Shown here piece by piece: positions 4,260 through 25,794 of a stretch of 64,000 nucleotides of DNA (position 1 is the stretch's first letter; each line of letters begins with the position of its first letter). The translations under genes and the position numbers were made by a program. Under the pieces are notes generated by a model. It saw nothing but the letters and a program-made list of their open reading frames with translations, ran no database searches and was not told the DNA's origin. The DNA lies in the NCBI GenBank assembly GCA_000161775.1, contig GG704596.1, positions 362,979 through 426,978 on the forward strand, written 5' to 3'. This stretch comes from Ruegeria lacuscaerulensis ITI-1157. Lineage in GTDB: Bacteria; Pseudomonadota; Alphaproteobacteria; Rhodobacterales; Rhodobacteraceae.

Positions 4260-4582
4260 TATGCCGGCATGCCACCGACCTCGTCCGCCGGGTGCTCTTT
4301 GAATGGGGTATGGGCGATACGCTGACCCACCTCCCGGCCAGCAGGACCATCCTCCGGCCCGGCGATGCCGTCGATCGCGCCGTGCAGGATGTTCTCGGCC
4401 AGTGCCTGGAGCAGGCGCAGGGCATCCTCCGGCAAAACCGGGACAGGCTGATCACCGTCGCAGAGGTGTTGCTGGCCGAGCGGGAGATGACGAAGGAGCG
4501 GTGCCGCGACGTGCTAGAAGGGTTTCATCCGAACAACGCCAAGCCGGCCCAGCCCGAAGGCGAAGGTTTATCCAGCATCTGA
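4260..4582 (+). pseudogene. Truncated 3' end of a soluble FtsH-like AAA/M41 protease gene
   Basis: From about 4260 the plus strand encodes ATDLVRRVLFEWGMGD and continues through LRPGDAVDRAVQDVLG to HPNNAKPAQPE. It is nearly the same, in protein and DNA, as the last roughly 100 residues of the gene at 22975-25233. Everything upstream, including the ATPase core and the HExxH site, is missing, and the frame is entered from unrelated sequence. It is the fossil 3' end of a second copy of that element-borne gene, placed directly before prophage debris. It shows that a related element once occupied this locus. Confidence 0.88.
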
Positions 4583-6060: not shown

Positions 6061-7182
6061 ATGCCCGAGGATTCGATGAAATTCAGATTGAAATATGTGG
6101 TGGAAGACGTGGACCGGCACGGCAATGTCCGCCTCTACTACCGCCGCAACGGGCGGAAGGTTCGCCTACGCGGCCCCGCCGGTTCACCTGAGTTCTTGGC
6201 CGACTACCGCACCGCCGCTGCTGGTCCGAAAGAGGCCAAGACCGACAAGGCCGGGCGCGTCGTGCCGAAGAGTTTTAGGTGGCTTTGCGTCCAATACTTC
6301 AAGAGCGCCATGTTTCAAGAGCTGGACCCCCGGACTCAGAAGGTCCGCCGGTCCATCCTTGAACGCTTCTGCGAGCACAAGGGCGACGGGGACAAACCCT
6401 TCGCTCAATTGCTGCCCCGCCATATCCGCGTCCGCCGTGATGAGATGGCCGACCGACCCGAGGCCGCCAACGGCATGGTGAAGGCCGTGCGCCAGCTCTA
6501 CCGCTACGCGCTTCGCTATGACCACCACGACGACAACCCGGCGGAGAAGGTCGAATATCTGAAGGGCAACCCCGACGGCTTCCATTCGTGGACGCTGGCC
6601 GAGATTGAGAAATACGAAGAGGCGCACCCGATTGGCACGCCCGCGCGTCTCGCCTTGGCGCTTGCCCTCTACACCGGCCAGCGCCGCGCCGATCTTGTGG
6701 TGCTGGGCAAGCAACACGTCCGCGACGGATGGCTGATCTTCACCCAGCACAAGGGCAGGAACCGGAAGCCGGTGCGGATGGAAATCCCCGTTATCCCAGA
6801 GCTGCAACAGATTATCGACGCCACGCCCACGGGCGATCTGACCTTCCTTGTTACCGCGTTCAATCGGCCCTTCACGTCCAACGGGTTCGGCAATCGCTTC
6901 CGCAAGTGGTGCGACGATGCCGGGCTTCCGCAGTGCTCCGTCCACGGGCTTCGCAAGGCCGCCGCCGCCCGGCTGGCCGAACTGGGATGCACGGAACAGG
7001 AAATCATGTCCATCACCGGGCACCGGACCAGTAAGGAAGTTACCCGCTACACCCGCGCGGCCAGTCAGAAGACCCGTGCGGAAAGCGCGCTTCGCCGTCT
7101 TTCCCGAGAACAAACCCCGAACGAAAGTGTCCCACTTTTGGCGGCGGTTGTTCCCGGTGGGACAAAATCGCAACCTAAGTAG
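6061..7182 (+). CDS. Phage tyrosine integrase next to the tRNA-Phe attachment repeat
   Basis: A 373-aa integrase. The N-terminal arm-binding part (KYVVEDVDRHGNVRLYYRRNG), a SAM-like core-binding region and the catalytic domain are all present. Active residues: Arg in YTGQRRADL, the HGLRKAA box, His in TGHRT and Tyr at about 330 in VTRYTRAA. The stop codon is only 28 bp from the 49-bp tRNA-Phe repeat at 7210, the classic position of an integrase beside its att site. It is a different family from the 7442 integrase, yet both appear to use the 3' end of tRNA-Phe, which implies successive integrations into one tRNA gene. Confidence 0.92.
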   Translation: MPEDSMKFRLKYVVEDVDRHGNVRLYYRRNGRKVRLRGPAGSPEFLADYRTAAAGPKEAKTDKAGRVVPKSFRWLCVQYFKSAMFQELDPRTQKVRRSILERFCEHKGDGDKPFAQLLPRHIRVRRDEMADRPEAANGMVKAVRQLYRYALRYDHHDDNPAEKVEYLKGNPDGFHSWTLAEIEKYEEAHPIGTPARLALALALYTGQRRADLVVLGKQHVRDGWLIFTQHKGRNRKPVRMEIPVIPELQQIIDATPTGDLTFLVTAFNRPFTSNGFGNRFRKWCDDAGLPQCSVHGLRKAAAARLAELGCTEQEIMSITGHRTSKEVTRYTRAASQKTRAESALRRLSREQTPNESVPLLAAVVPGGTKSQPK

Positions 7183-7209: not shown

Positions 7210-7258
7210 TGGTGCCCGGGGGCGGAATCGAACCACCGACACGAGGATTTTCAATCCA
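7210..7258 (-). repeat. att repeat (left copy): 3' 49 nt of tRNA-Phe
   Basis: Identical to 25720-25768; the flanking bases differ on both sides (A/G before, GG/CT after), which defines the 49-bp core. It corresponds to tRNA-Phe from the start of the anticodon stem to the CCA end. The 5' half of the tRNA is absent here, so this copy is not a functional tRNA. Confidence 0.95.
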
Positions 7259-7290: not shown

Positions 7291-7403
7291 TCGACCTGAA
7301 TCGCCTCAATCGCCGTAAGTAATTATTTTTTCTAAATATTTGCAATAATTATTTTCGCGACATACGTGCACTGTGAAGTACGAAAAAGCAGCCCAGCGTG
7401 GCA

Positions 7404-7430
7404 GATTTGTTGCCCCAGTGTTGCCCCAGA
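7404..7430 (+). repeat. 27-bp end repeat (left copy), candidate integrase arm sites
   Basis: This 27-bp string, built of two head-to-tail 11-bp units of the form GTTGCCCCAGT, recurs exactly at 25616-25642 near the other end in the same orientation. Short repeats near both ends of an integrative element, outside the att core, are the hallmark of arm-type sites bound by the integrase N-terminal domain. It lies just upstream of the integrase ATG at 7442, so it could also influence integrase expression. Confidence 0.7.
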
Positions 7431-7441
7431 AAGAACCGGAC

Positions 7442-8812
7442 ATGTCGAACAGGAAAGCTCTGACCGATGCATTTGTGCGTACCGTCACCGTGGACAGGCG
7501 CACCGAATTCTCCGACACCCAGTGCCCTGGCCTGAAGCTGCGCGTCTCTAAGACGGGCAAAAAGAGTTTCGCACTCAAGGCCCGCGACGCGTTCGGCACG
7601 GTGCAGACCGTCACCCTTGGAGAGTATCCGGCCACAACCTTGCGTCAAGCCCGGGACGCGGCGCAGGAGGCCCGGCGGCTTCTGCGAGTAGGGAAGAACT
7701 TCGCGGCGGAAAAGCGCACGCGAAAAGCGGAGCGGTCGAGAGCGCCGACACTGGCCGAACTGATCCAAGAGTATCAGGTAGTCGGGAGCGTCACGACAAA
7801 GGTGTGGCGCCCGCGGGCGGATGGTCGCCTGCCGGAGGCGCAGAGTTCAGTCCAGCGAGTTTTCGCACCGCTCCTCGACAAGAACGTGACCACGCTCACC
7901 GCTGAAGATTTCGCCGATGTTATGGCTAACTACCGCCCGAAGCAGAGGGGCAAGGTGTCCGCGAACGGCAGCGTATCCCGCGCGCGGTCATACCTGTCGG
8001 TCGTCATGGATTGGGCGGCGAACCGGAAGCGCTTCGGCAAGATTGGGGCTGGCCGAAACCCGGCCCTGGACGTGGTCGACATAAAGCTCACGCACGACCC
8101 AGCGATCTCGGACCCCTCGATCACCGGGGGTCGGGAAAGGGTTCTCACCGAAGATGAGTTGGCCTTGGTCTTGCCGTTGATGACCTACCCTGCCCCGAAA
8201 GCCTTGAGCAGCAGGCTCGCAGCAGAGGACCATCTGCGGCCGGTTGCACATCGGTTTATCCTGCTGACCTTGGCCCGCCTTCGTGAGGTTGCGGAAATGA
8301 AGTGGCGCGACGTCGATTTTCGATCAGGCATCTGGACGAAGATCCCCATCGACAAACGATCTGCTGCCGAAAGCCGCAGACAGCGCGTCCCCCTCTCCGA
8401 CGCGGCCATGCACCTGCTGAAATCGCTCCCGGGTGCGGATACGGCCGACCCGGACGATCTGGTGTTTCCAAATTCCTACGGACAAGTGGAAGTGAACTGG
8501 AACCGGGGCACCGAGGCGATCAAAAAGGCGAGTGGAACCAGCGGATGGACGCGGCATGACCTTCGCCGCACTTCGGCGACGATCCTCGCAGCCTTAGGTG
8601 CACCCATCGACCTGATCGCGGACATCCTTGGGCACTCGAACCGAACGAAGCGGCACGGCCTGTCTGGGGCGGTGGAACACTATGTCATCGCGACGAAGAT
8701 TCTCAGAGGCGTCGAGGACCCGCGCAAGGTCGTGCTGGATCAGCTTGCGACGGTTCTTGACGCGATTGAGGCACGAGCCAGGGACGCTGGCGATCTTACG
8801 AGTGGTGTCTAG
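7442..8812 (+). CDS. Tyrosine-type integrase (DUF4102 type) of the tRNA-Phe element
   Basis: A 456-aa recombinase that should catalyse integration at and excision from tRNA-Phe. The N-terminal part (LKLRVSKTGKKSFALKARD...TVTLGEYPATTLRQARDAA) is the DUF4102 arm-binding domain; a core-binding domain and catalytic domain follow. Active residues: Arg in LARLREVAEM, the RHDLRR box, His in LGHSN and Tyr at about 414 in VEHYVIATK. I choose the ATG at 7442 (MSNRKALTD); an in-frame upstream start at 7373 would translate the 27-bp repeat and is less likely. It is paralogous to the integrase at 12-1394. In the circular form the Xis-like gene at 25326 would lie directly upstream of it. Confidence 0.94.
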   Translation: MSNRKALTDAFVRTVTVDRRTEFSDTQCPGLKLRVSKTGKKSFALKARDAFGTVQTVTLGEYPATTLRQARDAAQEARRLLRVGKNFAAEKRTRKAERSRAPTLAELIQEYQVVGSVTTKVWRPRADGRLPEAQSSVQRVFAPLLDKNVTTLTAEDFADVMANYRPKQRGKVSANGSVSRARSYLSVVMDWAANRKRFGKIGAGRNPALDVVDIKLTHDPAISDPSITGGRERVLTEDELALVLPLMTYPAPKALSSRLAAEDHLRPVAHRFILLTLARLREVAEMKWRDVDFRSGIWTKIPIDKRSAAESRRQRVPLSDAAMHLLKSLPGADTADPDDLVFPNSYGQVEVNWNRGTEAIKKASGTSGWTRHDLRRTSATILAALGAPIDLIADILGHSNRTKRHGLSGAVEHYVIATKILRGVEDPRKVVLDQLATVLDAIEARARDAGDLTSGV

Positions 8813-11016: not shown

Positions 11017-11850
11017 TTAGGCCGCTTTTTGGGCCTTCTGTATGCTCCGCAACGCATCATCCCTGCACCTGAGCAGAATTGCGGAGGTTTCCTTGTCGGT
11101 TAGGGACTCGAAAAGCACCCCGCTGCCCCGCAGGTTCAATGCCTTCATGAACTCACGGAACGTGGCCTCGGTACCATAAACGTCCGGATGGCTGCGCATC
11201 GTTTGGATAATTCCCCTGAGCAGGCTTGCTCGGTTGCTCAGCATTGGGCGCTCGACCAAGTTCGAGCGGATGTCCGCGGTCCGCAGAAGCTCCTTCAGAA
11301 CACCAGCCTGATCCTGTGGATCGACCCGCCAGGCAATAAAAGCGTTCCACCATAGACGCGACACCGCATTGTCGTCACGATAGCCGGTTCTACCACGGGC
11401 AAAGTAGTGAGTTTCGATCTGGCTGATGTTTTGATGATGCACCTTCTTGCGCAGTTCGGCCGCCTTCTGCTTGGCGCCGGTCAGGCCGCCCAGCAGCCCG
11501 CCAGACTCTTTCGGCTCGTCTTTAAGAGGCCACCGCTTCCGGGCGTATTCCAGACACTCGAAATGCGTCAGGCGCGCCCATACACGTTCTTCGGTCGCCA
11601 GCGCGGGCGTCATCCCGCTGAAGGCCCCGAACACGATTAGTGAGTTGCCGACCTCCGCAGCGCTACCACCAGAGGGATCCAGCTTTTCAAACTGTTCGGG
11701 ATCCACCTCGACGGACGATAGTTCCATTGACCATCCGTTCAGATGAGCTTGACTGTCGAAACCAGAGCTGCGGTACCGTTCAAGGTTGGACGGAACATTG
11801 GCCTTCAGGTCGGCAAGAATGCTCTCTGCAAAATACTTCAGTTTAGGCAT
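11017..11850 (-). CDS. DUF6339 family protein, last gene of the GHKL defence-like operon
   Basis: A 277-aa protein that I match to DUF6339. The start MPKLKYFAESILADLKANV at 11850 is the first codon giving family-like sequence; upstream in-frame codons to 12066 overlap the preceding gene and look non-coding. Characteristic segments are GMTPALATEERVWARLTHFECLEYARKRW, FARGRTGYRDDNAVSRLWWN and KTADIRSN-like (RTADIRSNLVERPMLSNRASLL). No enzymatic motif is known to me; the dense conserved Trp, Arg and Asp residues suggest a folded helical effector or adaptor. It overlaps the preceding gene by 8 nt, so it is translated as part of the four-gene operon with the GHKL ATPase. Confidence 0.85.
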   Translation of the reverse strand: MPKLKYFAESILADLKANVPSNLERYRSSGFDSQAHLNGWSMELSSVEVDPEQFEKLDPSGGSAAEVGNSLIVFGAFSGMTPALATEERVWARLTHFECLEYARKRWPLKDEPKESGGLLGGLTGAKQKAAELRKKVHHQNISQIETHYFARGRTGYRDDNAVSRLWWNAFIAWRVDPQDQAGVLKELLRTADIRSNLVERPMLSNRASLLRGIIQTMRSHPDVYGTEATFREFMKALNLRGSGVLFESLTDKETSAILLRCRDDALRSIQKAQKAA

Positions 11851-12685
11851 TGTCCATAATCTCCGTGAATGCTCCTCCCAACTTCTCCACGGGAGAGCCC
11901 AGAAGCCGTTGTGCGCTCTCAAGGAGAGGAGCCCCTTCAATATCGATGTTGAGGTGTTCACACTTCGCAGAGAACACACGGTACCAGGGTCTATCTTCGA
12001 AACCGGATCCGCCCTGCCCGCGAATGCTCTCCAAGACCTCCATGACGACGGGCAAATACACAGCACTCAATAGCAGTGGCTTGCCTCCTTTGGTTCCTCT
12101 CAATTGCTCGATGGACTTGAAGAGATCGACGGGCGCGAGAACTCGGATAGAGTCGGCCAGCAAGTCGAGTTTCAGACGGCCTTTGGGGATATCATCCGAC
12201 GGAACCAACTCAAAAATGCTTTCGAACCTTCTCAGTTTATCCTGCCCGACGCTGAACACAGTGTCGTTCGCAAGGCCGATGATTTCCGCTGCGCGGACGG
12301 AAATCTTGCCTCCGAATTCAGGATTCAGGCTCGTAGCGGACCAGTTCTTCAATGGGCGCTTCAGCCAGATAACCGGTTTGACTTCGACCCTGCCGTGCAG
12401 CGCACCACGGTCGAATTGCCACGTCCCCGAAGTTTCGTCCGCCGCACGAAGTTCCGAAAAGAAGGTGTCCTGGCAGCGGATGAAGGCACCTGCAAGCGCT
12501 GCGTCAGTGTCAATCAATTCCTGCACGTCGGGCGAGGACAGCGACAACTGAAAATCGACCTCGACATTGCCGTCAGAAGACTCCCGAACTTCGGCGATCT
12601 GAAGATCAAAGTTTCCGCTCAGAAAATCGTCGTTCCCGTCACTGAGAACAGGGTGAGGGAAATGGCTGTTCAGATCGACCTTCAT
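11843..12685 (-). CDS. Unrecognised 280-aa protein, third gene of the GHKL operon
   Basis: I do not recognise a family. The protein starts MKVDLNSHFPHPVLSDGNDDF and alternates predicted strands and amphipathic helices; a central VKPVIWLKRPLKNWSATSLNPEFGGKISVRAAEIIGLA segment and a C-terminal GGKPLLLSAVYLPVVMEVLESI helix stand out. There is no signal peptide, transmembrane segment, P-loop or obvious nuclease motif. The ATG overlaps the ATPase stop (12682-12685) and its own stop overlaps the DUF6339 start, so it is probably made in fixed ratio with both and may be their structural partner. Base composition matches the rest of the operon. Confidence 0.85.
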   Translation of the reverse strand: MKVDLNSHFPHPVLSDGNDDFLSGNFDLQIAEVRESSDGNVEVDFQLSLSSPDVQELIDTDAALAGAFIRCQDTFFSELRAADETSGTWQFDRGALHGRVEVKPVIWLKRPLKNWSATSLNPEFGGKISVRAAEIIGLANDTVFSVGQDKLRRFESIFELVPSDDIPKGRLKLDLLADSIRVLAPVDLFKSIEQLRGTKGGKPLLLSAVYLPVVMEVLESIRGQGGSGFEDRPWYRVFSAKCEHLNIDIEGAPLLESAQRLLGSPVEKLGGAFTEIMDNA

Positions 12686-14574
12686 GCGCTCACCCTCCGG
12701 ACTGCGGATACCTCAACGGGGCCAGTGTAGTCGTCATCAAAGGTCACTTCGATCTCGACACGTGCGCCTTGATTCACGCTCAGCTCAACGCGTCCCTTTC
12801 TGACGGAACAATTTGCGGCACCGGACGCGCTTGAAATTCTCAGCTCCGTCTCGTCATACACACCCGTAGCGAGGAAGGTGAGTTCGATGTCTCCGGCCTC
12901 CTCCGGAGTAAAGAAGACCTTCCTGGTCCGCGGGCTTTTCTCGACGTTGCGCACTGTTGCGAGCCGAACAACCGGTTGCTGCCCCCTCGTGCCGTCACCT
13001 CCTTCGCCAGCACCCGAACCGTCACCTTTTCCATCAGTTCCGGCACCTCCGGAGCCGCCATCGTTGCCCGCCCCTCCCGCGTCACCCGGTACATGCCGCG
13101 CAACCGGCTTGCGAGGCTTCGGACGGATACGCTTTGCTGGCGTGAACCTGATCGTTTCCGGGTCGTCCTCAGCAGAGGGCACTTTCGCTTCTTCGCTGCC
13201 CGCGTCGGCAAAAAACTCTCCGAGTTCGTCAAGCTTGACCGCGTCACCGCCGGTGATTTCCGCGTTTTCCCTTATCAGATTTCGGATCTCATGAATGAGC
13301 CGCTTCATCGCCCGGGTAACTCTCTTCTGCTTCGCGGGGTCATCAAGCCGTCCTGCAGAGAATGCGTTGTGTTGCGGGTTTTCCAATGACTTCAGAACTT
13401 TGCTGGCTTCGTCGTCCGACGGCTCAACCAGCATTATGAAATCACGCGCGCCGGGAAACCTTGCAAACTTGTCGCCAAAATGCTCGAGGGAATCGGCGAT
13501 CAGCATGCCATTGCGAACGATCGCCACGCGCTTGGGCAATCCTTCCTCGACGAGGATTTTCGCCGTGAACTCGCCCAAGTCATCCACGCGGAAACGTTTT
13601 GCTACGGCGATTTCCGATTTGCGACACCGATAGAGTTGCCGCGCAAGCCGGATATCATCGCCATGCGAAGCCTCTTCCCCGGCCTCTTCGATCGCGCTGT
13701 CTTGGAGCAGTTCAGCCAGCGTTTCGGAATTGACGATGCGCGCAGAACCCCCGACCTCGAACTCGATGTCTCCGTCGTCCACTGCCGCAAAGAAGTTCGA
13801 CAGAAGCGGGACCGTCATACGATCGACCCAGTCCTCCCGGCCCCGAAACCCGATGGCAAAGACAGAGGTCCCCTTGGATTCGCGGCGAAGCCACTCCGGG
13901 ACCAACTTCGGATCTTCAACCGCCATGAAGTGTTCCGGATGCCCCCAATATCCTTTGGCGGTCCGCTCGATACCGCCTGCATCCCGGTGCGAAACAAGCT
14001 GCACCTTGCCCTGAAGCGCGAACCTCGGTCCATCAGGAGTCTCGTAGACCGTCGAATAGAATACCGTGCGAAGATCGGAGACGGCGAAGGTCGCATTTTT
14101 CCCGATCCCGAACGAGCCACCCGAGGTCTCGGTCGACTTGTTGCTCTTGCCGGAACTCTTCACAAGGGCATGGAACTTGGAACCACTGTCGTTCGGCGGA
14201 CCTTCCAGTCCCGTGGTATTGTAGTCCGCAATCTCAAGCACGGGGATGACGTCCTTCGTCACGACGTCATGGGCATTCTCGAAGAAGTCCCGGTCCTTTT
14301 CGCTTCCGGTCGCGCGGGCTTCTTTCAGGCAAGACTCAATGGTTTCCCTTAGCTTCTCGATGCCGGGGATCTCAGCGGCCTTTACCTGATGTTCGCGGAG
14401 CACCAATCGAACGGGGCGCCCCACCGCTGCATCCAGAGTGTTCTGACCAGCCTCACGGCTACAGCTGACAAATGGCGTGTCACGGAAAGTCTCGATACCA
14501 GCGTGGCCCAGACCCTCGACTTCACCCGCCTGGTTTTCCAGAAACTCCAGCCGCACTTCTTTCATCTCAATCAA
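12682..14574 (-). CDS. GHKL (Bergerat-fold) ATPase, MutL/MORC-like, with C-terminal beta domain
   Basis: A 630-aa ATP-binding protein. Bergerat-fold motifs are clear: the N box REAGQNTLDA with Glu41 and Asn45, motif I EIADYNTTG with Asp117 around 115-122, and the glycine lid GGSFGIGKNATFAVSD at 152-167. A second domain (about 200-380, with KGTSVFAIGFRG and RNGMLIADSLEHFGDKF) resembles the transducer/S5-like part of MutL, Hsp90 and MORC proteins. Then come a helical region (410-440), a Gly-rich linker (about 497-532) and a C-terminal beta-sandwich-like domain (535-630). Such ATPases clamp or remodel DNA, and relatives occur in restriction-associated clusters. It follows the 76-aa gene by 8 bp and overlaps the next gene at ATGA. 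Confidence 0.92.
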   Translation of the reverse strand: MIEMKEVRLEFLENQAGEVEGLGHAGIETFRDTPFVSCSREAGQNTLDAAVGRPVRLVLREHQVKAAEIPGIEKLRETIESCLKEARATGSEKDRDFFENAHDVVTKDVIPVLEIADYNTTGLEGPPNDSGSKFHALVKSSGKSNKSTETSGGSFGIGKNATFAVSDLRTVFYSTVYETPDGPRFALQGKVQLVSHRDAGGIERTAKGYWGHPEHFMAVEDPKLVPEWLRRESKGTSVFAIGFRGREDWVDRMTVPLLSNFFAAVDDGDIEFEVGGSARIVNSETLAELLQDSAIEEAGEEASHGDDIRLARQLYRCRKSEIAVAKRFRVDDLGEFTAKILVEEGLPKRVAIVRNGMLIADSLEHFGDKFARFPGARDFIMLVEPSDDEASKVLKSLENPQHNAFSAGRLDDPAKQKRVTRAMKRLIHEIRNLIRENAEITGGDAVKLDELGEFFADAGSEEAKVPSAEDDPETIRFTPAKRIRPKPRKPVARHVPGDAGGAGNDGGSGGAGTDGKGDGSGAGEGGDGTRGQQPVVRLATVRNVEKSPRTRKVFFTPEEAGDIELTFLATGVYDETELRISSASGAANCSVRKGRVELSVNQGARVEIEVTFDDDYTGPVEVSAVRRVSA

Positions 14575-18179: not shown

Positions 18180-20753
18180 TTGGGCCCAAAGGTTTTTTTG
18201 TCTTTGTCATTTGTGGATGACGACCTTGTCGACAGGGTTTATCGAAAACTGCCGGCGGGTTTGGCGTTCTTTTACAAAAAAAGCTTCGAAAATAGCGCGT
18301 CTCTGATTTCTGAGATGCAAACAGGTGTTAGCGAGTCTAAGATTTTCGTCCTGTTCGCTTCTCGCGAGGCGATGGAATCCGGTGGCGTACAGTTTGAGAT
18401 AAACGAAGCGCAAAGAAAAACCATAAGCGACTTCGGCTATCGAGTACTGGTCTATCCGACTAGCTCAAAAGTAAGCCACTCGGATCTTCCGTCATGGCTG
18501 CAACCATACTGGATGCCGCGTGCGGGTTATAGCGCGAACGATATCGCACGTCACATAACGCAGATTCTTATCGATGAGTATAGAACCGACATATTTGGTG
18601 GCGATCAGGTTATTGGCCGGGGTAGATCCAACGATGATCTGTCAGCCAGTGTGGCCGAGCACATATCCCGTCATCAAAAAAATCCAAAAGTCATAATACT
18701 TTCCGGTGTTCGCGGTGTCGGAAGAAAGACATTTGCTCAGTACTATGCAAAGAACTCACTTTCGTACTTGGGAAATGCTCCGTACGGGCCGAGGATATCT
18801 CTTGCTGATCATGCCGACATCGCAGACCTATATCGGTCTGTTCTGACTGAGGTTTCCGACGTGATATCACAAGAATCGTTCGAAAGGGAGATGGACGCAT
18901 TCACAGCTTTGGAGATGACCGAGCAAGCGAAAAACTTAGCCTCCAAGCTTTCTTACTTCTCAGACTTATCTCAGGTCGTAGTGATTGAGTCCTCACGTGG
19001 ATTTCTCGAGGACAAGGGAGGTTCTAAGGATTGGGTTCTTCCACTTTTTGATTTTCTGAGCGACGATAGCATAATATTTTTGATTTCGAGTAGGCTTATA
19101 CCGCAGGAAGAGTTGGCTGGTCGCAATAGCGTTGTTCAGTATCGAGTTCCCGAACTAAGCGACAAGGATACAAGGACCTTGATGGTCATGACAGCCCAGT
19201 ATCTCGGAGTTCCGGATTATTCTGTTAGTGATGATTTGGTCGTGGCTATTGGTGGTCATCCGGATATAGCCAGGCAGGCCGTGTTGCTCTCGAAGGTACA
19301 TGGGAACGATTTCTTTAGTCGAGATCCGAAGAAGCTCTATGATGTCCAGAACACTATATTGAGCGAGAGTATCGCTGAGGATTACTTGGAGCAGCGGGAC
19401 ATAGAGATTCTATCTTTGCTTAGCTGGGTTCCCGCACTTCCAAACGACCTTCTTTGGCGAACTATTAAGAAACTGGGGCGATCGCAGGAGGAGTTTTCCG
19501 AGTCCTTTGAGAACATGGTTCATGCATGCTTGATTGTCCCGTTGGGAAGTCGAGTATCGATTTCTCCTGCCATCAGAATGCCGTTCCGTCGTTTACACCC
19601 AAGCACGGATGAGCTTGTTACAGCATTTTCGAAGGTGCTTCGGGATGAATGGCAACGCGGCGTAGACGCAGATGAGTTTCGAGCAGATTTATTTGAGGCG
19701 TTTGTTTTCATGCACTCACTTGAGGGTAGCGCTCTCCCAAAGGAACTTGAGCGCTTGGTTACACCCGGGATGCTCCACGATGTGGTTCGGCAGAACTATA
19801 ATCTTGGTAAGGATAAGTACGACACAAACACACTGAAGAAGGCGATAGAGTGGGGAAAGATGGCATCGGGCATGAAGATGAACGATGCGACGCGTGAAGA
19901 AATAATGTCAATCGTTGCTCGTGCACAGATAAGGGTGCACGACTATTCCGGTGCTGATGAAACGATAGCTACAATGAATTCTATGGGCTATCGATCGTCC
20001 GCATTTCTGGCGGGCCACAGCCTGAGGAGGCAGGGCAAGATAGGTGATGCCATTCCACTTCTCGTTGAAGCAGTCAAAGAACGAAAAGCGATCAGGTCAG
20101 CGGTTCATGAGCTTGCACTATGCTACAGACGGGAAGGAAGTTTTGCCGAGTTGAAGGAGCTATTGGAAAAGCATTCTTCACTTGTAGCGGACAGCGCTTT
20201 CTTTTTGGATTTTCAGATTGGGCTCGACATTTCCTCGGGGCGCTTTGCCGAAGCTGAAAGCAAAATCGCGAACCTATCGAAATTGAGCGACGATAACGGT
20301 CGTTCCGGTTTTCGGGAAGCGCAGCTGCTCGAGCGCAGAAACGAACATCATAAAGCTAAGCTGGCTTGCTCTGAACTACTTAGAATGGGAACTGGAGTCC
20401 CACCGAAAATTCGCTCGCTCAGAGCTGTCTCTGCAGCGAACTCGGGTGATTTCAGTTTGGCCGATCAGGATATCGAGTTTCTTGCGAAGATCCCTGCATG
20501 GTCGAAAGTAGCGGATAGATGCCGAGCGCTACGCTACATGGCAGCAGGCGATCTTGATCAAGCTGGGGAGATCTTGGATGGTTTTGCGACCAAGAGCCCT
20601 GAAGACTGGCTGCTTTTGGCTAGATGGATGGACCAGAAGGCAAAACACAAGGCGACGCTGATCACGGAACGCGACGATTTGCTGACGCGTGCCCACGAGA
20701 TTCGCATCAGACATAGACTTCACTTTGACTTTGATTTCGACGACGACACGTAA
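18180..20753 (+). CDS. TIR-STAND NTPase-TPR protein, likely antiphage effector
   Basis: An 857-aa protein. Residues 1-135 form a TIR-like domain: KVFLSLSFVDDDLVDRVYRKL, the strand SKIFVLFAS, and GGVQFEINEA holding a candidate NAD-hydrolysing Glu at 73. Residues about 165-420 form a P-loop STAND NTPase: Walker A GVRGVGRKT (176-184), Walker B-like VVVIES (266-271) and the sensor segment FLISSR. The C-terminal about 300 residues are helical TPR-like repeats (AIPLLVEAVKERKAI, ELALCYRREGSFAEL). In known relatives the repeats sense a phage product and oligomerisation switches on the TIR NADase. The start is a TTG with GGAG 8 nt upstream. The gene is strikingly AT-rich, which points to recent acquisition. 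It stands alone as a single-gene system. Confidence 0.88.
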   Translation: MGPKVFLSLSFVDDDLVDRVYRKLPAGLAFFYKKSFENSASLISEMQTGVSESKIFVLFASREAMESGGVQFEINEAQRKTISDFGYRVLVYPTSSKVSHSDLPSWLQPYWMPRAGYSANDIARHITQILIDEYRTDIFGGDQVIGRGRSNDDLSASVAEHISRHQKNPKVIILSGVRGVGRKTFAQYYAKNSLSYLGNAPYGPRISLADHADIADLYRSVLTEVSDVISQESFEREMDAFTALEMTEQAKNLASKLSYFSDLSQVVVIESSRGFLEDKGGSKDWVLPLFDFLSDDSIIFLISSRLIPQEELAGRNSVVQYRVPELSDKDTRTLMVMTAQYLGVPDYSVSDDLVVAIGGHPDIARQAVLLSKVHGNDFFSRDPKKLYDVQNTILSESIAEDYLEQRDIEILSLLSWVPALPNDLLWRTIKKLGRSQEEFSESFENMVHACLIVPLGSRVSISPAIRMPFRRLHPSTDELVTAFSKVLRDEWQRGVDADEFRADLFEAFVFMHSLEGSALPKELERLVTPGMLHDVVRQNYNLGKDKYDTNTLKKAIEWGKMASGMKMNDATREEIMSIVARAQIRVHDYSGADETIATMNSMGYRSSAFLAGHSLRRQGKIGDAIPLLVEAVKERKAIRSAVHELALCYRREGSFAELKELLEKHSSLVADSAFFLDFQIGLDISSGRFAEAESKIANLSKLSDDNGRSGFREAQLLERRNEHHKAKLACSELLRMGTGVPPKIRSLRAVSAANSGDFSLADQDIEFLAKIPAWSKVADRCRALRYMAAGDLDQAGEILDGFATKSPEDWLLLARWMDQKAKHKATLITERDDLLTRAHEIRIRHRLHFDFDFDDDT

Positions 20754-20890: not shown

Positions 20891-21039
20891 ACTTCCCCTT
20901 TGTCTATTGAATGGCAGCTTTCAAGAAGTATGCATACGTTATTCGCTCCCGCAGCGAACGACCGCACCCCGCCCAATGTGACAGCGTTGGTGTCTTTTGG
21001 AACCGTGATATGACCCCTGCGGATTTTTCGCTCTAATAG

Positions 21040-21213
21040 CTACTGCCGTTCCCCATACACCTCTCCCCTGGTCCATGCATCAAGTATGCGGCGTATCATC
21101 TCCGGTCGGGTCGGTATGTCCTCTTCGCGCCTGCGAGCGTCGTCGAGCAGGGTTATGAGGTCGCGATGGAGGCGTAGGGTGAGGGCTTCGGTGTCTTTTT
21201 TCGGTGGGGCCAT
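21040..21213 (-). CDS. Small ribbon-helix-helix-like DNA-binding protein
   Basis: A 57-aa protein starting MAPPKKDTEALTLRLHRDLI, continuing with a helix TLLDDARRREEDIPTR and PEMIRRILDAW, and ending GEVYGERQ. The short strand (ALTLRL) followed by two helices is the ribbon-helix-helix fold of Arc/CopG-type repressors. It lies alone, divergent from the 156-aa gene at 21333 with 119 bp between them, so it may regulate that gene and the GIY-YIG/AAA module. No toxin partner is adjacent. The assignment rests on pattern, not on a search. Confidence 0.68.
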   Translation of the reverse strand: MAPPKKDTEALTLRLHRDLITLLDDARRREEDIPTRPEMIRRILDAWTRGEVYGERQ

Positions 21214-21332
21214 GACTTTTCTGCTTTATGATGTTGACATCGTAATCGCATAGTCCCATATTGAGCGGACGGAAGCAAGAGCTCCTACCCTCTTGCCTCC
21301 GCCCTGACCACAACGATCGCTAGGAGATCCTT

Positions 21333-21803
21333 ATGGCTGACACGCCCTCTAGCACGCCGCATCCCGCGGCTGAACCGCTGAACGCGCTCATTTCTTCGGA
21401 CAAGCTCGCTTTCCGCGCCGCGCTCGACCAGCTTTTCGTCGCCCTGCGCGCGGACTGGCTGCTGTACGAGACCCGGGCCGATCTGAATTCTGAGCCGGGC
21501 ATGGAGCTGGGCGACACCGCCGCCAGCGCCTGGTCGCTGGCCAGCGCCGGGCTGCGGGCTGTCCGGGATATGCGCGCCGCGCATCCCGACCTGCGGACTG
21601 CCGCCGGGCAGATGCTGCGGGCAGTGGAAGACGGAATGCCGAACCAGTCCGACCTGCTCCAGTTGTCCGGCGCGCTCTTTGATCTGGCCCGGTCGCAGAA
21701 GGCAGCCGCGCCCGATCTCCATGCGCTGCTGATGGAGGCGCAGGCCCTGATCGAGGCTTGGCGTGGCAATCTCGCCCTCATGGGTCTGCCGCGCGCCGCC
21801 TGA
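21333..21803 (+). CDS. Unrecognised helical protein, first gene of the GIY-YIG/AAA module
   Basis: A 156-aa predicted all-helical protein with an Ala/Leu-rich sequence (DKLAFRAALDQLFVALRADWLLYETRADL, LHALLMEAQALIEAWRGNLALM). AGGAG lies 8 nt before the ATG. No family is recognised, and no membrane segment or catalytic motif is seen. It is followed after 143 bp, which include a strong hairpin, by the GIY-YIG gene, then the AAA-M41 protease gene, all on the same strand and similarly GC-rich. This suggests a conserved three-gene cargo module in which this protein may be a substrate, adaptor or regulator. Confidence 0.75.
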   Translation: MADTPSSTPHPAAEPLNALISSDKLAFRAALDQLFVALRADWLLYETRADLNSEPGMELGDTAASAWSLASAGLRAVRDMRAAHPDLRTAAGQMLRAVEDGMPNQSDLLQLSGALFDLARSQKAAAPDLHALLMEAQALIEAWRGNLALMGLPRAA

Positions 21804-21832
21804 GCTTTCCCGACCGGCCTGCACCCTTTTCC

Positions 21833-21853
21833 CTGTCCGGGTTTCCCGGACAG
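21833..21853 (+). terminator. 9-bp GC hairpin between the first two module genes
   Basis: CTGTCCGGG-TTT-CCCGGACAG is a perfect 9-bp stem with a 3-nt loop, 29 bp after the upstream stop codon. It lacks a T run, so it may be an attenuator or RNA-stability element rather than a classical terminator. A TGTCCGGAG string reappears just upstream of both following genes. Confidence 0.5.
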
Positions 21854-21946
21854 GCCCCGCCGGCCTGTCTTCATCCCTTTCTTTTCCTCTCCACCCGCCC
21901 GCAGGCTCTGCGGGCCTTGGGTGGACTCTGTCCGGAGTTTTTTTCC

Positions 21947-22915
21947 ATGCCCACCAGCACCACGCTGTTCCCGTTCCCCATCGATGGGGCATTCCATCCT
22001 GTCTTCCTCGGCCCTGTCAAACGTCACTGGACCGCCGCCGCCGAGCGCAAAGGATTCTCGCTGATCGGCCGCGCGGTGGATCGCCTGCATGTGGTCCTCG
22101 GCTGCCATGCCTGCGGCCAGCCCACGCTCAAACGCATCAATGTGGTGCGCGATCACGCGCCCGAATGCCCCCACTGCATCGCCGCCCGCCGCGCAAAGGC
22201 CGCCCGGAAGATGGGCGCCCGGCTGATCGGGCCGGACCCCGAAGGTGACCGGCATTACGGGGTCTATGAATTTGCCTGTGGCCATACTGGCCGCCGTCAG
22301 CACCACCGGGTCGAACGGGCCGCCGATGGTGGGCACGGACTGAGCTGCGAGACCTGCACCGAGGAGCGCCACGCCGCCGAGGCAGAGGCGCAGGGCTGGG
22401 AGCTGATCGGCCAGGCGCGGCGGCGTCACCCCAGCTATCGCCGCTACGCCCATGCCTGCGGGCATCAGCAGGACGTGGCGGTGGCCAACATGCGCCATGG
22501 CGATGTCGATTGCGCGGGCTGCGGCGAGAGCTGGGCGTCGAAGCCGAGCCAGATCTATCTTCTGTCCTTCACCCTGCCCGATCTGCCTGTGATCAAGCTC
22601 GGGTTCAGCTCGAACCCTGCCTTCCGCCTGCGCCAGGTGCAGCGGGATCCCGGACAGACGAAGGGCAAGCTGTTGCGCGTCGTGCCGATGGAGTCCGGAC
22701 ATCGCGCCATCTGCATCGAGAAGGCCCTGCACGCGCATATCAAGGCGCATCGCCCGGACCTGATCGTGCCGCCCGACCTGTTCCGGGGCCCGATCCGGAC
22801 GACCTCCGAGATCTATCACCATCACGCCCGGTCCTACATCCAGGCGCTGCTGGAGGCGGTCGCGGCGGGCTGGGACCCCAGCGCCTCCGAGTCTCCGGAC
22901 AACGCCGCCGCCTGA
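21947..22915 (+). CDS. Cys/His-rich protein with C-terminal GIY-YIG (T5orf172/Mug113-like) nuclease domain
   Basis: A 322-aa protein. Three repeated modules of about 50 residues carry Cys/His pairs (GCHACGQPT...CPHC, FACGHTGRR...CETC, HACGHQQDV...CAGC) and look like tandem zinc ribbons. Residues about 203-290 match the GIY-YIG-type domain of T5orf172 proteins: IYLLSFTLPDLPVIKLGFSSN (YLL and KLG replacing GIY and YIG), an Arg in RLRQVQRD and a Glu in AICIEKALH. Such domains cleave DNA with one catalytic Arg, Tyr and Glu set. The ATG at 21947 is preceded by CCGGAG; the frame open upstream of it is not coding-like. The gene sits between the helical-protein and protease genes, and a DNA-sensing or cutting role is plausible but inferred. 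Confidence 0.85.
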   Translation: MPTSTTLFPFPIDGAFHPVFLGPVKRHWTAAAERKGFSLIGRAVDRLHVVLGCHACGQPTLKRINVVRDHAPECPHCIAARRAKAARKMGARLIGPDPEGDRHYGVYEFACGHTGRRQHHRVERAADGGHGLSCETCTEERHAAEAEAQGWELIGQARRRHPSYRRYAHACGHQQDVAVANMRHGDVDCAGCGESWASKPSQIYLLSFTLPDLPVIKLGFSSNPAFRLRQVQRDPGQTKGKLLRVVPMESGHRAICIEKALHAHIKAHRPDLIVPPDLFRGPIRTTSEIYHHHARSYIQALLEAVAAGWDPSASESPDNAAA

Positions 22916-22974
22916 TCCGATCCGGGGCCGCCAATCTGCGGCCCCCATTCTCCACCTTGTCCGGAGTTCTCCTG

Positions 22975-25233
22975 ATGCCCCAGACCCCACGCCCCGCGCC
23001 CGCCGGCGCGCTGTCTCCGCATGCCCTCTCGCTCCTGCGCCCGCTGCTGCGCCGCATCGCCCTGTGGCACCGTGATCTGAGCGCCGATCTCCAATCGGAC
23101 AACGGCCCTGACGACGACGAGTCCGACACCGGCCCGGCCCGCCCTGACGTGCGATCCTTGCCGCCGTTCCTACGCATGGATGAGCCTTATAGCGCCACGC
23201 CCGCAGCGCATGGGATGCGCGACCGCGACATCACCCGTGCGATCGCCGACGGCCGAGACCCCTGGGCCGAGGCGGACGGCACCGGCCAGATCAACCGGCT
23301 GCCCGACCCTCCGATCGACGCGATGGTCGCCGCCGCCCGTTTTGCCGCGCTGTTCGACAGCCCCGAGGACGTAGCCGCCGTCACCGGGGACCGGGCGTTG
23401 ACGGTAATTGTCGCCCCCAGTTCGGAGGATCGCCGGCTGATGTGGGCCCAGATGGATTCCATCCTCGGCTGGCTTGCGGATCTCGACGCTCCGGGCGGTG
23501 CCCGCTGGCGCGGCATCGACACGCCGATCCCGAGCGCGACCGAGCGCGATCGCGCGCCCAGGCGGGGTGTCGACGGACGCAATGCCGTCGCCTCTTCCGT
23601 CCGTCAGGGCCGCAAGGCCATCTGTTTCCTTCCCGACACCGGTTCCATGTCCGAGATCGAGCGGGCGCTCTGCCGGCGCATCTTCACCCTGCCGCCGCTG
23701 TCGCGCGAGATCTGCATCGAGATCCTGCGCGCGACCCATTCCGCCACCGGTCGGGTCGCCGAGGACGCCCTGCGCGACCGGCTGCCCGCCGACGGCGCGC
23801 TGGCCGCGCTGCCACTGCCGGTCATCGAAGGGGCCTACTGCGAAACTACCACGCTGGCGGTTGCGGATGCCCTGGCCGACGCCGCCGCGCGGATGCGGCG
23901 GCCTGCGGGGATCACCCTTGCCGACGTGGTACTGAACGCCGAGGTGCAGGAACCCATCGACCGGCTGGTGGCCGATGTCCGGGCTTGGATGTCCGGACAG
24001 TTGGGCTGGGACGAGGTCAGTTCCTCGGTCTTGCTGTTCGGGCCGCCGGGCAACGGCAAGACGCTCCTTGCCTCGGCCATCGCCGGGTCGATCGGCGGGC
24101 CGCTGGTGGCCACCAGCTACTCGGACTGCCAGAAGCACGGCCACCAGGGCGACATGCTGCGTGCTCTGTCCGAAAAAGCCGAGGCGGCGATCCGGTCGGT
24201 GCCGTCAGTGTTCTTTCTCGACGAGCTCGATTCTTTCACCCACCGCAACGCGGCGCATCGCCGGTCGGACTATATCGTGGGCGTGGTGAACGGGTTGCTC
24301 GAGCATCTCTCGCGGCTCAACGACACGGCCGGCGTCGTGGTTCTGGGCGCGACCAATTTCCCGGACATGGTGGACCCGGCCGTCATTCGGCCCGGGCGCT
24401 TCGACCTGAAGCTCGAGATGGGTAATCCCGACCGCGCAGCGCTTGTCCGGATTTTGCGCCTGGCCCTTGGGGACGATGCGGATGACCTCAACCTCTCCCC
24501 GCTCGCCGACCAACTGCTGGGTCTCTCCGGCGCGCAGGTCACAGCACTTGTCCGGGATGCCCGCGGCCTGGCACGGGCCGCAGGTCACCCCCTGCAGCAG
24601 CGCCACCTCGAGGCCGCCGCCCGTCGCATTGCGCCGCCGCCGGATACGGATTTCCTCTGGCGCGCGGCAATCCACGAAGCACGCCACATGGTCGTGGGTA
24701 CGGCCTGCGGGTTGGGCCTGCCCGAACGCGCCGTGCTCACCGTGGATGGCGGATCGGTCGAATACCCGCGCCCCCGCATCGAAACCCGCCAGACCGCGCA
24801 GTCCCGCCTGAGCACCCTGCTGGCGGGCTACGCCGCCGAACGGCTGGTCTTCGGCGAGGTCTCCAGCGGCGCCGGAAATGGGCCGGGCTCGGACCTCGCC
24901 CGTGCCACCGACCTCGCGCGTCGGATGCGCTTCGAATGGGGCATGGGCGACAGGCTGACGCACCTCCCGGCCAGCGGGGCCATCCTCCGGCCCGGCGATG
25001 CCGTCGACCGCGCCGTGCAGGATGTTCTCGGCACGTGTCTGGAGCAGGCGCACGGCATCCTTCGGCAGAACCGCGACAGGTTGACCGCCGTCGCAGAGGC
25101 GTTGCTGACCGAGAGGGAGTTGTCGAAGGAGCGTTGCAGGGAGGTGGTGGAGGGGTTTCATCCGAACAACGCCAAGCCGGCCCAGCCCGAACCCGCGATC
25201 CACAACCCGGGGCCGCCGGAAAGTTCGGGATGA
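22975..25233 (+). CDS. Soluble FtsH-like AAA+ ATPase with M41 zinc metalloprotease domain
   Basis: A 752-aa protein. The AAA+ core has Walker A GPPGNGKT (356-363), Walker B VFFLDELD (412-419) and a second region of homology ending AVIRPGRFD. The C-terminal M41 peptidase has HEARH (567-571) and a third ligand Asp in GPGSDLARATD (about 640). Unlike cellular FtsH there are no N-terminal membrane helices; instead about 300 Ala/Pro-rich residues of unknown fold precede the ATPase, so it should act in the cytosol. The ATG follows CCGGAGTT. It closes the module begun at 21333. Its 3' end survives as a fossil at 4260-4582. It may degrade a specific phage or host protein, or control element maintenance. 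Confidence 0.93.
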   Translation: MPQTPRPAPAGALSPHALSLLRPLLRRIALWHRDLSADLQSDNGPDDDESDTGPARPDVRSLPPFLRMDEPYSATPAAHGMRDRDITRAIADGRDPWAEADGTGQINRLPDPPIDAMVAAARFAALFDSPEDVAAVTGDRALTVIVAPSSEDRRLMWAQMDSILGWLADLDAPGGARWRGIDTPIPSATERDRAPRRGVDGRNAVASSVRQGRKAICFLPDTGSMSEIERALCRRIFTLPPLSREICIEILRATHSATGRVAEDALRDRLPADGALAALPLPVIEGAYCETTTLAVADALADAAARMRRPAGITLADVVLNAEVQEPIDRLVADVRAWMSGQLGWDEVSSSVLLFGPPGNGKTLLASAIAGSIGGPLVATSYSDCQKHGHQGDMLRALSEKAEAAIRSVPSVFFLDELDSFTHRNAAHRRSDYIVGVVNGLLEHLSRLNDTAGVVVLGATNFPDMVDPAVIRPGRFDLKLEMGNPDRAALVRILRLALGDDADDLNLSPLADQLLGLSGAQVTALVRDARGLARAAGHPLQQRHLEAAARRIAPPPDTDFLWRAAIHEARHMVVGTACGLGLPERAVLTVDGGSVEYPRPRIETRQTAQSRLSTLLAGYAAERLVFGEVSSGAGNGPGSDLARATDLARRMRFEWGMGDRLTHLPASGAILRPGDAVDRAVQDVLGTCLEQAHGILRQNRDRLTAVAEALLTERELSKERCREVVEGFHPNNAKPAQPEPAIHNPGPPESSG

Positions 25234-25325
25234 ACTCTTATGTGGATAACCCCGCGCGCACCATTGCATGCCGGCAAGTCGCGACATTTTTCGTTACCAC
25301 AGACAACAGCAAAGCGAGATTGCGA

Positions 25326-25719: not shown

Positions 25720-25768
25720 TGGTGCCCGGGGGCGGAATCGAACCACCGACACGAGGATTTTCAATCCA
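25720..25768 (-). repeat. att repeat (right copy) within intact tRNA-Phe
   Basis: Identical to 7210-7258 over 49 bp. This copy is the 3' two-thirds of a complete tRNA-Phe gene, from the anticodon stem to the CCA end, so the element inserted at the tRNA 3' end and restored the gene. Confidence 0.95.
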
Positions 25769-25794
25769 CTGCTCTACCCCTGAGCTACCCGGGC
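25720..25794 (-). tRNA. tRNA-Phe (GAA)
   Basis: A complete 75-nt tRNA on the minus strand: acceptor GCCCGGG/CCCGGGC, D-arm with TAGCTCAG...AGAGCA, anticodon stem GGATT/AATCC with loop carrying GAA, T-arm CGGTGG-TTCGATT-CC and an encoded CCA. It is the integration site of the 18.5-kb element and borders the conserved chromosomal genes yacG, rne/rng, maf and infA. Confidence 0.97.

Follow-up and report, generated by a model that had tools for sequence, protein, structure and literature searches.

Several described systems come close to the locus considered here. Proteases of the FtsH/HflB family have an M41 zinc protease domain after an AAA+ module, and IetAS couples an AAA ATPase to an S8 protease. 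The nuclease families GIY-YIG and PDDEXK_5 both include homing enzymes. We compare these systems with a four-gene cassette of 4,275 bp, at positions 20977-25251 of a stretch of 64,000 nucleotides from Ruegeria lacuscaerulensis ITI-1157 (contig GG704596.1, positions 362,979 to 426,978; this whole stretch is called the window below). It consists of three same-strand genes, for a helical protein, a nuclease and an AAA+/M41 protease, and a divergent gene for a ribbon-helix-helix (RHH) protein. To judge from the sequences, the components belong to known families or lie close to them; none of the profile libraries searched has a name for their combination, and a literature search covering titles and the beginnings of abstracts returned no description of it. 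SNIPE is a membrane-bound anti-phage GIY-YIG nuclease, a membrane-anchored DUF4041 protein (PMC13190303). It differs from the cassette nuclease, in which three zinc ribbons are present, a membrane helix is not evident and a protease gene adjoins.

We tentatively read this mobile Rhodobacteraceae cassette as an accessory defence or element-competition system in which the protease controls the nuclease. The observations behind this reading are a recurrent gene order, co-occurrence of the genes, invariant residues and metal ligands, two types of nuclease filling one slot, a second copy of exactly this unit and, at the loci examined, neighbouring defence genes. It is because a replaceable nuclease, its partner, a repressor and an unfolding protease share a mobile unit beside defence genes that a nuclease-protease defence comes to mind. 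In such a system the nuclease (a zinc-ribbon GIY-YIG enzyme here, a PD-(D/E)XK enzyme elsewhere) would cut DNA brought in by a phage or by a rival element, the helical protein would act as its partner, probably as a restrainer, and the RHH protein would repress the divergent promoter. The protease would unfold and degrade either the restrainer, releasing the nuclease, or the nuclease itself, protecting the host.

Recurrence and duplication of the cassette

A first-pass annotation of this DNA had singled out the three same-strand genes at 21333-25233 as a recurrent module of matching base composition, and both points stand. The open reading frames (ORFs) are as it gave them: gene 1 (21333-21803, + strand) codes for a protein of 156 aa with five long helices in its AlphaFold2 model, gene 2 (21947-22915, + strand) for a nuclease of 322 aa with three zinc ribbons and a C-terminal, MUG113-like GIY-YIG domain (alignment, Pfam, PHROGs), and gene 3 (22975-25233, + strand) for a soluble-looking AAA+ ATPase / M41 metalloprotease of 752 aa with an N-terminal extension of about 300 aa. 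Their GC contents are 0.692, 0.683 and 0.701, against 0.488 for the TIR gene upstream. To this picture we add the divergent RHH gene (21040-21213, - strand, 57 aa), the fact that the unit is duplicated as a whole, its decayed copy at 4270-4558 and the finding that HEARH, in the protease, is a point variant.

Recurrence was followed in 394 genomes of the family (protease E<=1e-60, GIY-YIG protein E<=1e-20). The distribution is sporadic, the protease being present in 27 genomes and the GIY-YIG protein in 24, with 18 genomes having both (hypergeometric p=1e-19); 20 of the 33 GIY-YIG places sit 63-1124 bp upstream, on the same strand, of one of the 35 protease places. A locus survey dealt with 42 chosen loci, not with all protease places, and counted the 35 having at least 2.5 kb upstream; the seven set aside (L006, L053, L054, L058, L060, L067, L069) all have a nuclease match as well. 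With search profiles built partly from the surveyed loci themselves, a nuclease gene was found upstream, within 2.6 kb and on the same strand, in 29 of the 35 protease loci (23 GIY-YIG, 6 PD-(D/E)XK), and a divergent RHH gene in 27; these counts include some kinship, W (the window) and C2 coming from one genome and L007/L010 and L014/L015 being same-genome pairs. More distant AAA/M41 proteins, such as that of L036, have other neighbours. When 385 genomes sampled from the whole class were searched with the GIY-YIG profile, R. lacuscaerulensis alone gave a match, four other listed genomes of the same family being negative too; the cassette looks confined to Rhodobacteraceae, of which that sample holds few members. 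An IMG/VR pattern scan with protein 3, which reaches close relatives only, confirmed no viral copy, and among the 20 phage records listed, out of 48, the matches cover at most 58% of protein 3, at 27-31% identity, so that a phage origin found no support in either search.

R. lacuscaerulensis itself holds a second copy of the cassette, 1.2 Mb away (C1:1614457-1610183, - strand), again of 4,275 bp and 99.8% identical by blastn; the flanks of the two copies do not match each other. Nine differences separate them. The first 26 bases contain five, two more fall between genes 2 and 3, and one is silent; the ninth is in codon 570 of gene 3 (24682-24684, + strand), which reads CGC (Arg, giving HEARH) in the window and GGC (Gly, giving HEAGH) in copy 2 and is the sole amino-acid difference across the four proteins. 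A decayed third copy, a remnant of 289 bp from the 3' end of the protease gene (4270-4558, + strand), is 87.9% identical to 24903-25191, and no extra solo cassette ends were found in this genome beyond the two known copies. Elsewhere in the genus sample (54 genomes) cassette DNA occurs only in G021, which we take to be Ruegeria intermedia from an identical contig; five further genomes match, as does G021 a second time, over stretches of at most 41 bp only. One R. intermedia contig of 4,381 bp is cassette from end to end (88% identical), and two further contigs overlap either end of it by exactly 95 bp; these exact overlaps suggest two identical copies collapsed by assembly. Contig pairs of G162 and G263 likewise begin inside the cassette at the same residue, with identical beginnings of 95 bp in G263 and of similar length, by eye, in G162, suggesting that these genomes have repeated cassettes as well. 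Two strong protease matches were found in eight of the 27 genomes that have one.

Such unit-exact duplications in two genomes, together with the contig pairs that break inside the cassette, the decayed copy and the eight genomes with two or more protease matches, speak for an autonomous mobile element that copies itself without a known transposase, by means of its own nuclease. This account is very unlikely. Neither terminal inverted repeats nor a target duplication of at least 7 bp could be reproduced between copies (a single 7-bp direct repeat is present, in the window copy only); the cassette ends differ between subfamilies; no empty site was found, the left flanks of both R. intermedia copies being absent from the other 53 genus genomes searched; and movement in trans or homologous recombination accounts for the same data. 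No product of the four genes exceeds the curated cut-off of a transposase or recombinase model, the weak AAA-type matches of gene 3 being to an IS21 helper ATPase (16.9 bits, cut-off 200) and a DNA-transposition ATPase model (18.4 bits, cut-off 317).

The plasmid records raise another possibility. At least 80% of the protease is covered in seven of the 1115 records with any protease match, and 17 plasmid records match gene 2, of which seven were examined through that match, three through their protease match and one more through gene 1. In an addiction module the nuclease would be a toxin, the helical or the RHH protein its antitoxin, and the built-in protease would ensure antitoxin turnover, so that cells losing the plasmid or island die. 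The presence of the cassette on many plasmids agrees with this, as do the positions of two units without protease, L084 within about 5 kb of repABC genes and L082 within about 5 kb of ParB/AAA/DnaA-like genes; three plasmids of one Sulfitobacter indolifex strain have each their own version, one with the RHH and helical genes only. RHH proteins, furthermore, commonly serve as antitoxin autoregulators. We nevertheless consider addiction unlikely. A chromosomal contig with near-identical copies at two loci should not be addicted to either one, four genes are many for an addiction module, and some units have no protease at all.

The proteins and their described relatives

The protease had been described as lacking membrane helices and retaining Walker A/B and HEARH, and this is what we find. 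One chain holds the Pfam domains AAA (E=3.8e-26) and Peptidase_M41 (E=5.6e-18), with Walker A at residue 356, Walker B at 413 and HEARH at 567. The highest 19-residue Kyte-Doolittle mean, 1.33, falls in the Walker A region; on this scale there is no evident membrane helix and no N-terminal membrane anchor of the FtsH type. Together with its N-terminal extension and its partner nuclease gene this sets the protein apart from FtsH/HflB, and its score against TIGR01241, the FtsH/HflB model, is 160.8 bits for a cut-off of 600. In the AlphaFold2 model (mean pLDDT 76.4) the AAA part resembles p97/Cdc48 (Z 22.5, rmsd 2.3 and 241 aligned residues in the best row). Residues 309-728 match an E. coli FtsH model with 406 aligned residues (Z 21.1, rmsd 8.6) and AFG3L2 with 389 (Z 21.1, rmsd 8.2). 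The N terminus may have a degenerate AAA+ fold: three of the 50 structure matches listed (p97 7lmz, NVL 9bji, Rix7 7swl) extend over it, with an rmsd of about 15, but a profile comparison of this region with the AAA domain found no relation (hhalign probability 0.2-0.4%). An invariant stretch, TSYxDCQKHGHQGD in our alignment A2, sits about where FtsH has its FVG pore loop.

The second relative, IetAS, shares the coupling of an AAA+ ATPase to a protease, and IetA models match the AAA part with E=1.3e-24 (87.5 bits against the IteA model, for a cut-off of 510). It differs in that the cassette protease is an M41 enzyme in the same chain as the ATPase; the cassette has no S8 match. The nuclease, helical and RHH partners are not known to be part of IetAS.

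The zinc-binding motif of the protease deserves a closer look. Copy 2 and all 14 other sequences of alignment A2 have HEAGH, HEARH thus being a point variant of the window copy. As the glycine of HEAGH belongs to the M41 motif, the window protease may be impaired while that of copy 2 is intact.

The nuclease had been credited with repeated Cys/His pairs. These form three clusters with 12 ligands of the metal type, all of them invariant across an alignment of 15 sequences, and so are R227 and E258, an Arg/Glu pair of the GIY-YIG catalytic type. Its best Pfam match, MUG113, reaches 20.7 bits, under the gathering cut-off of 22.3, and T5orf172 reaches 13.4 for a cut-off of 20; among PHROGs it matches the endonuclease phrog_681 (E=9.5e-9). 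In other cassettes a second type of nuclease, PD-(D/E)XK, occupies the same slot. Of the four putative PD-(D/E)XK nucleases scanned against Pfam, that of L031 matches PDDEXK_5 above the cut-off (E=4.9e-7) and that of L030 below it (5.9e-5), while those of L015 and L017 have no match; together with L013 and L029, these members of the class are linked by a profile built from those same six loci. One slot nuclease is annotated as a 'group I intron-associated PD-(D/E)XK endonuclease', which recalls homing endonucleases. The cassette differs from these in that its two copies in one genome have unrelated flanks, so that no common homing site is seen; homing at a fixed site, in its simple form, is ruled out thereby.

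The RHH protein was recognized from its translation and from tblastn in relatives, its RHH_1 match (E=0.018) lying below the Pfam cut-off. Its homologues are annotated as CopG-family RHH proteins, and relatives occupy the same position in other cassettes (tblastn, locus survey); it is likely an autoregulator. The product of gene 1 has no match in Pfam, NCBIfam, PADLOC or PHROGs. Its five-helix AlphaFold2 model is confident (mean pLDDT 85.8), with no fold match in the PDB at E<=0.001, and the counterpart of this gene in L101 matches MbeD/MobD weakly (E=0.0011, below cut-off).

Neighbouring genes and exchange of parts

A 49-bp direct repeat, part of tRNA-Phe, is present in the window at 7210-7258 and 25720-25768, the full tRNA-Phe covering 25720-25794 (- strand). 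We take it to mark an island, integrated at tRNA-Phe, that contains the cassette. Two ORFs of the tyrosine-integrase type, judged by eye, lie at 6061-7182 and 7373-8812. The first-pass annotation had placed the genes at one end of the element, which is right for this island and does not extend to other loci, where the contexts are many and unrelated: plasmids, islands with a recombinase or a relaxase, and elements as different as those with a tyrosine integrase and those with a serine recombinase. Some cassettes adjoin metabolic genes and insertion sequences.

Genes of known defence families are found beside the cassette at selected loci, which fits an antiviral or element-stability role. HamB-like (Hachiman) helicases adjoin it in L009 and L012, and Lamassu LmuB in L007 and L008; type I and type II restriction genes lie near it in L012 and L109, and a caspase-like match in L108. 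Annotated plasmid neighbours include SIR2, BsuBI/PstI and methylase genes, and the island of the window holds a C5 methylase with Vsr. Three other genes of the window, at 11020-14574 (- strand), match the PADLOC candidate PDC-M33A/B/C (E=5.8e-105, 1.7e-40 and 2e-27), and 18180-20753 codes for a TIR-domain protein with TPR repeats (PADLOC TIR-NLR, E=1.1e-9). Beside copy 2, three ORFs of 349, 132 and 225 aa (L026, 4676-6758), the first and third without PADLOC match, are possibly an undescribed defence set.

The slot of the nuclease is best seen as replaceable in three related islands, L007, L008 and L009, each with a serine recombinase and a gene of the Mob_Pre type. L007 and L009 are 92.5-94.8% identical in their left flanks and 90.0% in the protease with the right side; the part made of the RHH, helical and nuclease genes is of two types, with nucleases 60% and 38% identical to that of the window. 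L008 and L009 differ within the helical-nuclease part alone. L009 and L010 have most of the cassette and the right side in common (88%), and not the left flank. The pattern of L007-L009 resembles, at the level of sequence, an exchange of specificity. The cargo of these islands is swapped too: Lamassu LmuB in L007, LmuB with an unassigned gene of 373 aa in L008, and a HamB-like helicase in L009.

The same islands bring to the fore a third account, in which the cassette belongs to the backbone of integrative mobilizable elements, protease and nuclease controlling excision, transfer or establishment together with a serine recombinase or relaxase. A general function of the element had been named from the start as the alternative to a defence system, and it keeps some weight here since protease and recombinase are constant in L007-L009. 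A large serine recombinase is encoded downstream, on the same strand, in 11 of the 35 protease loci (Resolvase/Recombinase domains were found in that of L008), and relaxase or Mob_Pre matches near the cassette stand above the Pfam cut-off in L007, L031 and L101, and below it in L019, L102 and the window. Even so, a backbone role is unlikely. The other 24 loci, among them both copies of R. lacuscaerulensis and the plasmid loci L029-L031, L033 and L034, have no downstream serine recombinase (two of the 24, L014 and L035, had less than 600 bp of downstream DNA), and the cassette is common to element types unrelated to each other.

The reading as a defence or competition system has, to be sure, its own difficulties. 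In L007-L009 it is the defence cargo that varies and the protease and serine recombinase that are constant, so that the latter look like element backbone. The neighbours submitted to PADLOC were selected for their size and closeness and are no random sample; of the 18 proteins, 5 had no match there (L008 1975-3093, L009 2620-3414, L109 1949-5287 and the two ORFs tested beside copy 2). The catalytic motif of the window copy is altered. Six of the 35 protease loci (L014, L018, L035, L108-L110) have neither a nuclease nor an RHH match, and, conversely, no protease was detectable in seven plasmid units (L081-L086, L088) that combine the RHH gene with the helical gene, the nuclease gene or both.

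The TGTCCGG signature

The most unusual observation is an excess of TGTCCGG inside the coding sequence of a single mobile cassette. The window cassette (4.3 kb) has fifteen TGTCCGG/CCGGACA sites, on both strands, at 21560, 21664, 21834, 21846, 21929, 22650, 22695, 22895, 22958, 23976, 23990, 23993, 24361, 24444 and 24549. This is about 16 times the 0.86-0.92 expected, within a span of 21560-24555; the other 59.7 kb of the window have 13 sites. A palindrome of 23 bp between genes 1 and 2, CCTGTCCGGG-TTT-CCCGGACAGG (21832-21854, read directly), holds two of them. TGTCCGGAG, reported earlier as preceding the second and third genes, is indeed present at 21929 and 22958, and belongs to the same enrichment. 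Coding sites number 11, against a mean of 2.4 in synonymous shuffles, a count reached in 0 of 1000.

The signature extends through the protease subclade to which the window cassette belongs: in each of the eight cassettes (W, L006-L010, L012, L097) TGTCCGG ranks first among 7-mers against a base-composition expectation. When synonymous codons are permuted, the eight have 66 coding sites for 11.8 expected, with a log-likelihood ratio of 59.7, the next unrelated 7-mer reaching 14.7; taken singly, their counts are reached in 0 to 4 of 1000 shuffles. A stricter test of the whole spectrum leaves TGTCCGG on top, beyond all 120 shuffles, in the window, L008, L012 and L097, and L006, L007, L009 and L010 do not exceed all 120. 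Sites are concentrated in the protease gene, with 4-9 per gene (6 in the window), and occupy 21 positions of the alignment, in every frame and on either strand. Of these positions, four are used by a single sequence and none by more than five of the eight; being so little shared, the sites probably arose repeatedly.

R. lacuscaerulensis DNA outside the cassette (134.7 kb) is not enriched, with 29 sites seen for 25.8 expected, which leaves a host-wide uptake or Chi-like signal unsupported. The motif follows the protease subclade and not the type of nuclease, since L009, L010 and L097 have the other nuclease type and yet the motif; Sulfitobacter units whose nuclease is 65-69% identical, with a similar RHH strand, show no excess. 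Neither the RHH protein nor the nuclease is therefore supported as a reader of the signature. Of the other 24 cassettes and four control genes, only L098, with 13 CTCCGGA sites for 2.1 expected, and, narrowly, L034, with 8 CGGCACG sites for 1.2, went beyond their shuffles. In the distant cassette of L098 (7313-11300), CTCCGGA has 14 sites in 4 kb and 7 in the other 13 kb, and ATCCGGA 11 sites, with 10 in the other 13 kb, a signature different from TGTCCGG. The sole paper containing the 7-mer that a literature search returned is unrelated. The boldest account of TGTCCGG would make the cassette a selfish or defensive element that disperses without a conventional recombinase and marks itself with dense sites, used with its own nuclease and protease to tell self from rival or foreign DNA; this is a long shot.

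If the cassette does serve in defence or competition, an ATP-driven protease would there govern a nuclease, itself replaceable as a plug-in part. A name would then also exist for a unit that recurs on plasmids and islands of the roseobacter type, and whose genes are so far annotated only as scattered hypothetical and 'AAA family ATPase' proteins.

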